Shown: positions 11,901 to 15,727 of the stretch, in pieces
Numbering within the stretch: position 1 is the stretch's first letter
Layout of the letters: each line of letters opens with the position of its first letter
Source of the DNA: Streptococcus parauberis NCFD 2020
Lineage (GTDB): Bacteria > Bacillota > Bacilli > Lactobacillales > Streptococcaceae
Assembly (NCBI RefSeq): GCF_000187935.1
Contig: NZ_AEUT02000001.1
Location: 186,001 to 250,000, forward strand
DNA length: 64,000 bases
Direction: 5' to 3'
The notes under the pieces: generated by a model
Databases searched by the model: none
What the model was told of the DNA's origin: nothing
Seen by the model: the letters and a program-made list of their open reading frames with translations, nothing else
Translations under genes and position numbers: made by a program

Positions 11901-13208
11901 ATGTCAATTATTACTGATGTTTACGCTCGCGAAGTCTTAGACTCACGCGGTAACCCAACACTTGAAGTAGAAGTTTATACTGAATCAGGTGCTTTCGGAC
12001 GTGGAATGGTTCCTTCAGGAGCATCAACTGGTGAACATGAAGCAGTTGAACTACGTGACGGTGACAAATCTCGTTATAACGGATTAGGAACTGAAAAAGC
12101 AGTTGACAACGTAAACAACATTATCGCTGAAGCTATCATCGGTTTTGATGTACGTGATCAACAAGCTATCGACCGTGCTATGATCGCTCTTGACGGAACT
12201 CCTAACAAAGGTAAATTAGGTGCTAACGCTATTCTTGGTGTTTCTATTGCCGTAGCTCGTGCTGCTGCAGACTACCTTGAAGTACCTCTTTACAACTATC
12301 TTGGCGGATTTAACACTAAAGTACTTCCAACTCCAATGATGAACATCATCAATGGTGGATCTCACTCAGATGCTCCAATCGCTTTCCAAGAATTCATGAT
12401 CATGCCTGTAGGTGCTACAACATTTAAAGAAGCTCTACGTTGGGGTGCTGAAGTATTCCATGCTCTTAAGAAAATCCTTAAAGAACGTGGTCTTGAAACA
12501 GCTGTTGGTGACGAAGGTGGATTCGCACCTAAATTTGATGGCACTGAAGATGGTGTAGAAACTATCCTTAAAGCTATCGAAGCTGCTGGATATGAAGCTG
12601 GCGAAAACGGAATCATGATTGGTTTTGACTGTGCGTCATCTGAATTCTATGATAAAGAACGTAAAGTATACGACTACGCTAAATTTGAAGGAGAAGGCGG
12701 AGCAGTTCGTACTTCTGCAGAACAAATTGATTACCTTGAAGAATTAGTTAACAAATACCCAATCATTACTATCGAAGATGGTATGGATGAAAATGACTGG
12801 GATGGTTGGAAAGCTCTTACTGAACGCCTAGGCGGACGTGTTCAATTAGTTGGTGACGACTTCTTCGTTACAAACACTGAATACTTAGCTCGTGGTATCA
12901 AAGAAGAAGCTGCTAACTCAATCCTTATCAAAGTTAACCAAATCGGTACTTTGACAGAAACTTTTGAAGCTATTGAAATGGCTAAAGAAGCTGGATTCAC
13001 TGCAGTTGTATCTCACCGTTCAGGTGAAACTGAAGATTCAACAATCGCTGACATCGCAGTTGCAACTAACGCTGGACAAATCAAAACTGGTTCATTATCA
13101 CGTACTGACCGTATTGCTAAATACAACCAATTACTTCGTATCGAAGATCAACTTGGTGAAGTTGCTCAATACAAAGGTATCAAATCATTCTATAACCTAA
13201 AAAAATAA
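11901..13208 (+). CDS. eno: Enolase
   Basis: A 435-residue phosphopyruvate hydratase of full length. It converts 2-phosphoglycerate to phosphoenolpyruvate in glycolysis. Visible landmarks are the N-terminal [18 protein letters not shown], the [15 protein letters not shown] region near residue 200, the signature [14 protein letters not shown] near 340 and the catalytic-loop [10 protein letters not shown] near 370. Streptococcal enolase is also found on the cell surface, where it binds plasminogen. Codon use is strongly optimised. AAGGAGAG precedes the ATG. The last codons (YNLKK-stop) form part of a 33-bp direct repeat that recurs 2.5 kb downstream. Confidence 0.98.
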
Positions 13209-13224
13209 TCTAATTATTTGATTA
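13192..13224 (+). repeat. Putative attL-like direct repeat at the eno 3' end
   Basis: This 33-bp stretch starts inside the last codons of eno and matches 15695-15727 at 30 of 33 positions. The first 18 bases (ATAACCTAAAAAAATAAT) are identical. Such a copy at a conserved 3' end is the usual trace of site-specific integration. Confidence 0.6.
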
Positions 13225-13245
13225 GTGTTCTGAAACATTGATTTT

Positions 13246-13285
13246 AAAGCATTCTAGGGAACTGACCTAGGATGCTTTTTCTTTT
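13246..13285 (+). terminator. Terminator downstream of eno
   Basis: AAAGCATTCTAGG pairs with CCTAGGATGCTTT, followed by a T-rich run. Confidence 0.85.
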
Positions 13286-13350
13286 TTTGTTGCATTTATT
13301 TCAATGAAATAAGATAATCAAGTAATTATTAAATATATTGGAGGTAAGTT

Positions 13351-13551
13351 ATGACACATACCAAATTTAACATTATTACTATTTTACCGGCAGGATCAAA
13401 ATTGAAAGATGGGACTGTTTTAACATAACAAACAAAATTCTCATCAGATGAGTTCGAAAAAAATGCATTGATGCTTCCAGCTGATCATCCAGTAAATCAA
13501 TTTTTACTGCGTTTATCAATAGAAAGATGGAGAAATAATACAGATAAATAA
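13351..13551 (+). pseudogene. Small gene interrupted by an in-frame stop
   Basis: A strong GGAGG site precedes ATG 13351. Reading gives 25 codons (MTHTKFNIITILPAGSKLKD and on), then TAA at 13426-13428. The same frame continues for another 40 codons (including SSDEFEKNALMLPADHPVNQ) to TAA at 13551. Restoring codon 26 would give a protein of about 66 residues. I do not recognise the family. It may be a pseudogene, or a 25-residue peptide may be the real product. Confidence 0.45.
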
Positions 13552-13636
13552 CTTGATGATGAATAGATTTTTAATTTATATAAAAATGTTTTGTATGTAC
13601 TTTTGAAATATCTCAAAATCTGCTATTATATTATTA

Positions 13637-13823
13637 ATAGATGAGTAGTTTAAGAGTGAGAATATGGTATGGCATAATACTCGAAAGAGCTGATTGAACT
13701 GGTTTGTATTAAGTTTCATCTGTTACTTTTGCAATAAACGGGATGCAGATGTCATTATCAAGATATCGGTTGAAATCCGATCAATCTATTATAAAAAGCA
13801 CTTATCAAATGATAGGTGCTTTA
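13637..13823 (+). ncRNA. Candidate structured small RNA in the accessory segment
   Basis: TTGAAA at 13603-13608 and TGCTATTAT at 13621-13629 form a plausible promoter. A terminator hairpin (AGCACTTATCA/TGATAGGTGCT) closes the unit near 13823. The roughly 187 nt between have no credible open frame. They contain several small hairpins, among them CATCTG/CAGATG near 13720-13750 and ATCGG/CCGAT around a 7-nt TTGAAAT loop at about 13764-13780, which resembles a tRNA T arm. The identity is unknown. Confidence 0.4.
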
Positions 13824-13855
13824 TAAATATGTGTATTATTTTGATTATTTAATTT

Positions 13856-14293
13856 TTATTTTATGGTAACTTTGATATTTTTAGTTTTAGAAAATAGACT
13901 GATACGTTTATCAAATGTCAATTTAAATTCTAGTTGTTCTATTCTCTCTGTTAGATAGAATGAGAATGAGGTTCTATCATTAGGTAGTAGAATTCTTGGA
14001 AAATTATCGTCAGATAAAACATTACTGGTCACAGGACTATCTTCTTTATAGTCAATCAAATATGTAACTGGTTTTCTATTATTTGCATTAGTAATTTCAA
14101 GACCTAAAAGTTTTATACCAGATGTTGAATAGTTTAAAATATCAAACATTAATAGATTTTGATATTGATCATCGAAAAAGAGGTATACTGAATTAACAAT
14201 TTCGATAAGAATCCTATTTTCTTTTATTGAGTATATTAGAGTCAGTATTGCAACTAGTAATGTTAAACTTCCGATAAGCAATTCGATTGTCAT
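13856..14293 (-). CDS. Membrane-anchored hypothetical protein
   Basis: A 145-residue protein on the - strand with one N-terminal membrane segment (about residues 4-23, rich in Leu/Ile) and a probable beta-rich domain after it. AAAAGGAT lies about 8 bases before the ATG on that strand. I do not recognise the family. The hydrophobic anchor with a C-terminal globular domain recalls accessory-region proteins of unknown role. Base composition is clearly more AT-rich than the neighbouring eno gene. It is the only leftward gene inside the segment flanked by the eno repeats. Confidence 0.6.
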   Translation of the reverse strand: MTIELLIGSLTLLVAILTLIYSIKENRILIEIVNSVYLFFDDQYQNLLMFDILNYSTSGIKLLGLEITNANNRKPVTYLIDYKEDSPVTSNVLSDDNFPRILLPNDRTSFSFYLTERIEQLEFKLTFDKRISLFSKTKNIKVTIK

Positions 14294-14398
14294 ATATTAT
14301 ATCCTTTTTTATTAATTATATCACAATAAATATGATTGAAATTTCCATATGTTAAATTAGTTCTTGTGTTTTCTAGATATGGTACTTGATATTAGTGA

Positions 14399-14586
14399 TA
14401 TAATATAGATAATAGGGCAGTGGTCTAATATGGATGACGCATCATGTTATGATGATATGGCGATGCAAATCCGTCTGACTATTATTTAACACAAGAGTAG
14501 TATATAGAGATTGCCCCTTTATTGATGGGATGCCGATTCGAATCCTGACTATTGTGTTAATGCATCCAGATAACTGGGTGCTTTTA
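14399..14586 (+). ncRNA. Candidate transcript with tandem tRNA-like modules
   Basis: TGATATAAT (14396-14404) is an extended -10 box, and a terminator (GCATCCAG/CTGGGTGC plus T run) ends at about 14586. Module 1, 14412-14483, is 72 nt long. It has a T-arm-like stretch GGCGA-TGCAAAT-CCGTC at 14459-14475 and a CATC/GATG hairpin whose loop ATGTTAT would give anticodon GTT, but only four of seven acceptor pairs. Module 2 is closed by a perfect 9-bp stem (14486-14494 with 14552-14560) and contains CCGATTCGAATCC. Both modules share AATCC...TGACTATT. They look like decayed or highly diverged tRNAs. Confidence 0.35.
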
Positions 14587-14611
14587 AAAATATTAAGGAC
14601 AAATTTTAAAT

Positions 14612-15523
14612 ATGAAAAAACGAAATTACTGGAGATTAACAGCAATAATTATTATATTATTTATTTCAAGGTTTAAATTTTCAAAAGAAACTACAGTTTT
14701 AATGACAAAAGCAGTCTTCTCTCGAGAATTTTTTTCAAGTTTCTTTGGTGCTGCAGTAGCTGCATGCATAACTTTGTATGTCTTTTTTAAACAGTCTAAA
14801 CAGGCTGAGAATATAATGAAAACTCAAATAGAGACTCAAGAAAATCAATTAAATCAACAACTTGAATCTTCTAATATTCAATTCAAGGATCAGCAAGAAA
14901 TGGCAAAGCTACAATTTCAAACTCAAATAGAAGTACAAACCGAGCAATTCAATAAACAGCAGATTTTTGAATTTAAAAAAATTGAGATAGAATACTACTT
15001 AGAAAAAGTGCAAGAGGTGAATAATTTATTATTACGAGTTAAGGAGATCACTGAAAATGGCTTCAAGCCACTCACAATCAGAATGACAGAACTACAAACT
15101 GATTTGCGTAGCAATCAAAATAAAGAGTTATTTCATTTGTATTTTAAAAAAAATTTACCCCAAATAGAAGCTTTGTACTTGGAATACTATAAATTTTCAA
15201 TAGAAATCCATGAAATTTCAAATAAATTAATTGTATTTTCTGAATTGTTCGATACTGGTTTATCAAAGCATATACTTGATTTTGTAAGAGGTGAATTTGG
15301 ACTAGAGTTTTATGAGACAAATTTAGTAGAAATTTGGTGGGAAAATAATATACAAAATTCTTATAAAAAGTACTCAGAGCATAAGTCAGAAAACTTTGAT
15401 AATATTGTACCGACCTTAAAAATATATGAAAAGGTATTAAATCTTGATCAAAGAGTAATTCCTTTTGAAATAAAAAATAAGCATAGTGAATTAAAAGAAT
15501 TAACTTATAAAAACATAACATAA
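14612..15523 (+). CDS. Membrane protein with coiled coil, unknown function
   Basis: A 303-residue protein. Two hydrophobic segments lie near residues 8-20 and 40-60. They are followed by a Gln/Glu-rich coiled coil (about residues 65-130, with repeated QTQIE-like units) and a helical C-terminal domain of about 170 residues. A weak AAGGA lies about 12 bases before the ATG. No known domain is recognised. The arrangement of membrane hairpin, coiled coil and cytoplasmic domain occurs in some phage-defence and stress proteins, but nothing here proves such a role. A terminator follows the stop codon directly. Confidence 0.6.
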   Translation: MKKRNYWRLTAIIIILFISRFKFSKETTVLMTKAVFSREFFSSFFGAAVAACITLYVFFKQSKQAENIMKTQIETQENQLNQQLESSNIQFKDQQEMAKLQFQTQIEVQTEQFNKQQIFEFKKIEIEYYLEKVQEVNNLLLRVKEITENGFKPLTIRMTELQTDLRSNQNKELFHLYFKKNLPQIEALYLEYYKFSIEIHEISNKLIVFSELFDTGLSKHILDFVRGEFGLEFYETNLVEIWWENNIQNSYKKYSEHKSENFDNIVPTLKIYEKVLNLDQRVIPFEIKNKHSELKELTYKNIT

Positions 15524-15552
15524 AAGAGGCACAAATCAATGTGCCTTTTCTT
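15522..15552 (+). terminator. Terminator of the coiled-coil membrane protein gene
   Basis: AAAAGAGGCACA pairs with TGTGCCTTTT, followed by CTT. Confidence 0.75.
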
Positions 15553-15694
15553 GCCTGCTGAACTCATAAAATTGTTACCTTTTTTGTTACCAACTAAGTT
15601 TTTGATAATTAGTTATTCCAAATTTCTAGTGGTATAAAAAGTGATATTAACAATCTGTAAAATGTGATATTTTGAAGTGTTATTTAATAGGTAG

Positions 15695-15727
15695 ATAACC
15701 TAAAAAAATAATTTAACTATTTGATTT
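15695..15727 (+). repeat. Putative attR-like direct repeat
   Basis: Second copy of the repeat that ends eno (30 of 33 bases identical). It is preceded by a gene-free AT-rich stretch from 15553 and followed by a terminator that could be the ancestral eno terminator. Confidence 0.6.

Follow-up and report, generated by a model that had tools for sequence, protein, structure and literature searches.

The 3′ end of the enolase gene eno is already known as an attachment site in streptococci. Prophage 20617 of Streptococcus thermophilus (HG424323) was reported to integrate there with a 43-base duplication, its excision was detected by PCR, and the authors called the eno site a novelty in 2018 (PMC6237837). 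Furthermore, the record of the S. suis element phiZJ20091101-2 (KX077893) is annotated with a 17-base att site at the end of eno and again 9.4 kb downstream, the integrase being located directly behind eno. A published supplement on satellite insertion sites (PMC6813308) may already include eno. In this study, a 2.5-kb segment behind eno of Streptococcus parauberis NCFD 2020 was analyzed within a stretch of 64,000 nucleotides (contig NZ_AEUT02000001.1, positions 186,001 to 250,000), referred to here as the window and numbered from its first base. Comparison of its ends, its core, its gene families and its missing integrase with related elements indicates that the segment very probably represents a degraded streptococcal satellite prophage, resembling phage-inducible chromosomal islands, which integrated at the eno 3′ end and lost its integrase. 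A first-pass annotation of the same DNA had also considered site-specific integration and subsequent decay to a relic, and this proposal is supported by integrase-bearing relatives at the same place with a shared core and matching right arm and left end. Its statement that eno is not established as an attachment site has to be corrected in view of the published prophage (PMC6237837) and the annotation of KX077893.

The segment is delimited by a 33-bp direct repeat (13192-13224 and 15695-15727) with 30 of 33 bases identical and the first 18 perfect, exactly as previously noted; a repeat finder returned the pair 13192-13223 and 15695-15726 with 94% identity over 32 bases. The similarity exceeds chance expectation, the best 33-base match among 2000 simulated first-order Markov sequences of 5 kb each and of local composition being 25/33, and no third place on either strand of the window reached 23/33. 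The left copy comprises the final 17 bases of eno, including the stop codon, and 16 bases beyond. The AT-richness ascribed to the interval was also found, the GC content being 0.27 in the segment, 0.35 across the window and 0.41 in eno. Judged from sequence comparison, the repeat is an attL/attR pair sharing a 17-base core, the position of which agrees with the annotated att site of KX077893 and with the right-end cores of integrase-bearing satellites at eno. The target gene and the ends of the segment are arranged as follows:

11901..13208, + strand: eno (enolase), the target gene, intact, an open reading frame (ORF) of 435 amino acids (aa)
13192..13208, + strand: attL core of 17 bases, ending at the eno stop codon, identical to 15695-15711
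13209..13299, + strand: left end contributed by the element, including an SpF01-like terminator which would now serve eno, recognized by the left-end profile and a match to S. penaeicida
15549..15694, + strand: right arm of the element, recognized by the right-end profile and possibly the region of the integrase arm sites
15695..15711, + strand: attR core, identical to 13192-13208, terminating the right-end profile
15712..15790, + strand: chromosomal flank with a terminator, presumed from its position right of attR to be the original eno terminator

To describe the right end, a profile of 162 positions, extending from the TTGCCTGCTGAACTC motif to the core, was built from 11 integrase-bearing eno satellites. 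It matched the window at 15549-15711 with 52.9 bits (28.7 bits of bias; E = 1.8e-15), while the next match in the window had an E-value of 1.5. Motif and core are spaced by 144 in the window and by 142-145 in 17 of 20 other loci, a count that includes the duplicates L119 (equal to L062) and L120 (equal to L069); in L097, L098 and L099, no core was found by pattern. For the left end, a profile of 16 integrase-bearing left ends gave its sole significant match in the window at 13210-13288 (20.3 bits; E = 1.9e-5) and only 0.8 bits on the flank of the right copy. The Rfam family SpF01 scored 26 bits at this left end, which is under its cut-off; it matches the terminator behind eno in 10 of 13 scanned integrase-bearing loci, the exceptions being L061, L066 and L070. 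Three loci lacking an integrase match (L025, L030 and L082) show it too. In addition, 77.6% identity over 76 bases (E = 4e-11) was obtained between 13225-13299 and the left end of an element in S. penaeicida CAIM 1838 (L137 and L164), for which the left-end profile gives no more than 6 bits. This element is not located at eno, possesses a different core and adjoins a nitroreductase-like gene (assigned by eye). Since it shares the left end at another site, the left terminator of the window most likely belongs to the element. These results also bear on a plain duplication of the eno end and its terminator, for which no integrating element would be needed. Such an event would be compatible with the shortness and AT-richness of the repeat and with the eno locus of genome G179, which has a larger tail duplication of unknown cause. 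However, the right copy ends the 162-position right-arm profile, the flanks behind the two copies differ, and the right-end cores, end profiles and S. penaeicida left-end match speak strongly against this explanation, which is barely credible.

The prevalence of comparable elements was evaluated in 284 Streptococcus genomes, one per species, 281 of which contain the eno tail. Integrases related to that of the S. uberis satellite Javan624 (MK448584) were detected in 135 genomes at E-values of 1e-60 or better, and 20 stretches were inspected, ten chosen for an eno gene already beside the integrase and ten others by integrase score. The integrase was convergent to eno in 15 of them (all ten preselected stretches and five of the others) at a distance of 154-164 bases, or 453 in one case; inserts with an integrase, which the first-pass annotation had proposed to look for at eno, are seen in relatives. 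The five stretches without eno (L068 and L071-L074) encode integrases 63-70% identical to the query. Integrase identity alone does not decide the site, because the integrase of genome G286, with 65% identity, is located at eno. In 12 of 14 integrase-bearing loci (KX077893 and 13 of the 15), a right core was recognized by 14 to 17 matching bases, and the flank behind it differs from the left one; the exceptions are L056 (no core) and L061 (a poor candidate only), both cut by contig ends. Among viral contigs containing the integrase, 21 of 26 loci hold five bases or fewer past this gene and hence show no flank.

Compared to these relatives, no integrase convergent to eno is left in the window, which is a remnant and not a working member of the eno-integrating satellites. 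The best E-value in a tblastn search of three streptococcal integrases against 13001-16000 was 0.17, in line with the first-pass annotation. When the segment was compared to the fetched loci by blastn, matches were confined to its ends, RNAs, cargo and broken gene, and no regulator, replication or interference genes were recovered. The plasmid collection provided no match to the segment, and an interpretation as an integrative and conjugative or integrative and mobilizable element was dropped, since nothing of that kind was recognized in it. Single-copy sites, the search for which had also been suggested, were found for two relatives: the 160 bases right of the KX077893 attR are identical to the eno flank of G022, and the right flank of the G009 element, which has no integrase match, shares 93% identity with the eno flank of G035 across 160 bases. 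Neither an integrase nor a second core was detected within 6.6 kb (G022) and 8.0 kb (G035) of eno. For the species of the window, represented by a single genome, no such site was found, as considered below. The following features lie between the cores:

13351..13542, + strand: broken 63-codon phage or satellite gene with a premature in-frame stop and a DNA match to S. parauberis phages
13636..13830, + strand: candidate tRNA-like RNA 1 with a terminator, T-arm assigned by eye
13856..14293, − strand: intact ORF of 145 aa with an N-terminal hydrophobic helix, matching phrog_4989
14410..14485, + strand: candidate tRNA-like RNA 2, directly before SpF41, T-arm assigned by eye
14486..14589, + strand: SpF41 small RNA (RF02435, from Rfam), tRNA-like, with a terminator
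14612..15523, + strand: intact cargo protein of 303 aa with relatives in satellites

SpF41 scored above the cut-off in 23 of the 284 genomes, and in 15 of these, the window genome included, eno was located within ~10 kb upstream on the same stretch. Five of these 15 loci contain a full integrase and G295 a 48-residue piece of one, while no integrase match was obtained between eno and SpF41 in the remaining nine (window, G032, G288, G221, G009, G290, G275, G193 and G135). In G032, eno, the left end, SpF41, the right arm and a degenerate core are compressed into ~0.6 kb. The window fits into this apparent decay series of eno satellites. In the other eight genomes, SpF41 adjoins a terminase small subunit gene (G075 and G113), is followed 0.6 kb downstream by a 33-aa terminase large subunit match (G250), lies at a contig edge (G016) or on a different contig from eno (G204), or is not at eno or unresolved (G059, G121 and G194).

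The closest elements share different parts of the window. KX077893 has the eno-end att site with a 17-base core, an element-borne SpF01 terminator, the same right arm and a relative of the broken gene near its right end; unlike the window, it spans 9.4 kb between the cores, encodes an integrase and replication genes, carries other cargo and has no SpF41 above the cut-off. Javan624 resembles the window in its right end, where SpF41 precedes a full-length relative of the 303-aa protein by 22 bases, but is complete, and its integrase shares 70% identity with the KX077893 enzyme. A location of Javan624 at eno had been assumed from this identity and is not claimed here; its site is uncertain, because the S. 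penaeicida integrase, up to 89% identical to that of Javan624, has another core and site. The S. penaeicida element shares with the window SpF41, a 39% related cargo protein, the left end and the right arm; it differs in its place of insertion, its core and an integrase that is present but contains a stop. Most similar in their state of decay are the remnants in G032 and G009, both of which show eno, SpF41, the right arm and another copy of the core, degenerate in the case of G032, but no integrase match. G032 also has the SpF01 left end but lacks cargo between SpF41 and the right arm, whereas G009 carries other cargo.

Phage 20617 has in common with the window its integration at the eno 3′ end (PMC6237837); it differs as a full prophage with a 43-base repeat and a different terminator, and its integrase is only 23% identical to the satellite-type integrase. 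The segment could alternatively be the relic of a full-length prophage of this type. The premature in-frame stop at 13351-13542 corroborates the broken small gene described previously, and 13341-13532 shows 95.8% DNA identity to the S. parauberis phages Javan386/394; the 145-aa ORF likewise matches a phage family (phrog_4989, E = 3e-9) and is 29% identical to a protein of S. suis phage Clyde. These matches and the published use of eno by phage 20617 (PMC6237837) would favor a prophage origin. However, among the 17 records of phages or satellites with protein relatives of the broken gene, 15 are satellites (KX077893 counted as one). In 14 of the 15 satellites, Javan468 being the exception, the match is situated towards the far end of the record, within ~2.3 kb of it, and ORF17 of KX077893 lies within 1 kb of attR. 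Moreover, the 43-base duplication of phage 20617 extends upstream into eno, while identity in the window begins at the 17-base core, and the right arm and the order of SpF41, cargo and right core are of the satellite type. Descent from a full-length prophage is consequently regarded as quite unlikely.

The first-pass annotation had assigned the genes between the repeats to no recognized family, which no longer holds in view of phrog_4989 and the Javan624 relative. The 303-aa protein is 33% identical over the full length to Javan624 ORF14, 30% identical to a Javan397 protein over 67% of its length, and 39-40% identical to an S. penaeicida protein. The family thus has four members found (window, Javan624, Javan397 as a partial match, and S. 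penaeicida), the relatives lying in satellites. In the three members scanned for SpF41 (window, Javan624 and S. penaeicida), the start codon follows this RNA by 22 bases, the S. penaeicida spacing being counted from the second ATG (16 bases from the first). The structural model of the 303-aa protein features N-terminal hydrophobic helices followed by a 130-residue helix (predicted local distance difference test score (pLDDT) 77.6; predicted template modeling score (pTM) 0.58), and a fold search against the PDB returned nothing with an E-value of 0.001 or below, the top matches being generic helical proteins; the AlphaFold2 model of the 145-aa ORF was too poor for such a search. Pfam, PADLOC and NCBIfam provided nothing convincing for either ORF. 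A search of 5.8 billion proteins returned only the own cluster of the 303-aa protein, a silence that means little, because the Javan624 relative was missed as well. The slot between SpF41 and the right end contains exchangeable cargo in relatives, namely toxin-antitoxin-like pairs, a 401-aa protein, a three-gene set or the 303-aa family, as named partly by record annotation and partly by eye. From its place in this slot, interference with phages is the likeliest guess for the role of the 303-aa protein.

The small transcripts of the first-pass annotation correspond to SpF41, which scored 99 bits in the window (curated cut-off 52), and to two candidate related RNAs. Candidate RNA 1 is 75% identical over 13636-13779 to the stretch immediately 5′ of SpF41 in G135 and is itself a sub-threshold SpF41 match (21.5 bits; E = 3.3), and candidate RNA 2 shows 74% identity over 14389-14496 to a G076 stretch that also matches SpF41 below the cut-off. 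An alignment of 24 SpF41 sequences, 23 of them distinct, was prepared, leaving out G135 (above the cut-off) as well as G076, G179 and G085 (below); the G179 and G085 matches look like true tRNA genes by eye. It supports an acceptor-like stem of nine pairs, in which 98.5% of cells are paired, and a T-arm of five pairs (93%). Ten pairs in total show two-sided changes, and the covariation score is 0.319, whereas slid controls did not exceed 0.115. Less certain is the middle hairpin, which is 80% paired and in which 19 of 23 sequences leave one of the five pairs open. Covariation supports the putative tRNA-like structure of the SpF41 family. In the window copy, 8 of 9 acceptor-stem pairs form and 3 of 5 T-arm pairs are broken.

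The latter observation is relevant to the possibility that the segment is a miniature satellite able to move even today, with a helper phage and another eno-type integrase acting in trans. Identical 17-base cores, a well conserved right arm, two intact ORFs and the retention of SpF41 would be in accordance with mobility. Against it stand the broken T-arm, the left arm sites, which look decayed by eye, and the best family integrase listed for this genome, which is only 48% identical. Overall, continued mobility appears improbable, though less so than descent from a full-length prophage.

Several further observations weigh against the interpretation as a degraded satellite prophage. The nearest DNA relative of the broken gene is a full phage, and both accessory ORFs are intact, which is not predicted for a pure relic. 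The left-end score is modest, with bias contributing 13 of the 20.3 bits, and ten loci without integrase match exceed it (L025, L082, L077, L030, L029, L079, L084, L024, L090 and L012, with L077 and L012 truncated at contig ends). In view of these ten loci, some species could possess SpF01-like terminators of their own, or the loci could be remnants as well. The closest right arm is that of the S. penaeicida element (74.8% identity over 314 bases), although its core and site differ, and the G009 remnant, used here as a parallel, has no SpF01-type left flank. Finally, no empty site was found for the species of the window: the right flank (15712-15790) had no counterpart behind eno among the matches listed for the 284 genomes or in the compared loci.

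As reconstructed from these comparisons, we infer the following order of events for the degraded satellite. The satellite prophage would have been inserted by tyrosine-integrase recombination at the 17-base core over the last eno codons and the stop. Since the incoming element supplied the core and its own terminator, the eno frame would have been restored and an element-borne terminator gained, while the original DNA downstream of eno was presumably displaced to the right of attR. The integrase and the genes for regulation, replication and packaging interference may then have been lost through later deletions. Still present are the left end, the broken cargo-type gene, SpF41 and the other tRNA-like RNAs, the two accessory ORFs in intact form, and the right arm together with attR. 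The element is presumably immobile today.

Additional observations were made at other eno loci. A duplication of the eno 3′ end downstream (~100-125 bases) was also found in other families of the order (L017 and L018 from G045, and L019 from G055), at distances of 18.5 and 20.6 kb in G045 and ~4.3 kb in G055. As two XerC/D-like tyrosine recombinases follow eno in G045, this target seems to be shared by unrelated elements. In G179 (L087), the eno 3′ end recurs over ~190 bases at a distance of 1.1 kb downstream (+1103 from eno). Integrases of the 20617 type, or pieces of them, are located right of the satellite attR in L055, L067 and L097, which suggests a satellite and a prophage in tandem at one eno site. 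In L102 (G295) and L090 (G090), the right core is followed by an apparent SpF01-like left end (by eye), as if two elements were stacked. Three CRISPR-type direct repeats (Rfam CRISPR-DR22) are present within Javan624 (L031, 4701-5082), and the Skipping-rope RNA (RF02924) occurs in eno-satellite stretches (L062, 7109-7186, adjoining SpF41, and L070, 11049-11127). In the window itself, a decayed gene for a short-chain fatty acid transporter, apparently split across frames, was detected at 15958-16520 upstream of an intact thiolase gene (17124-18314), one piece of 105 aa matching SCFA_trans with E = 1e-15, and a preQ1-II riboswitch scored above the cut-off at 31880-31994.

SpF41 is furthermore linked to phage packaging genes. 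In all five streptococcal phages inspected (Javan115, A25, phiNJ2, Javan258 and MissD, out of 20 full-size records matched by the G075 SpF41), it directly precedes the gene for the small terminase subunit. SpF41 and the terminase are separated by a tRNA-Met gene in a Dorea phage, and in a Roseburia phage, the gene for the large subunit comes after SpF41. In the openly licensed literature, as far as it was covered, no description of SpF41 as tRNA-like or terminase-linked was found. Tentatively, SpF41 may be a tRNA-like phage RNA that helper phages keep 5′ of the terminase and that satellites adopted at the border of the cargo slot, where it could act in late-gene control or in the choice of DNA for packaging; the eno remnants would then hold fossil copies of a hijacked signal.

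In a S. agalactiae survey, SpF01 and SpF41 were confined to strain-specific regions, both being present in strain GBS85147, and were listed as strain-specific small RNAs or possible virulence elements (PMC6064168). A strain-specific occurrence is expected for a satellite residing in few strains, and RNAs of this type are better read as parts of satellites or phages than by the labels of that survey (PMC6064168). The eno 3′ end represents a recurrent integration site in Streptococcus, used by satellites and 20617-type prophages, apparently sometimes in tandem, and remnants such as the one studied here persist as small accessory loci. With its position beside terminase genes, the tRNA-like SpF41 provides a concrete lead on how satellites exploit their helpers.

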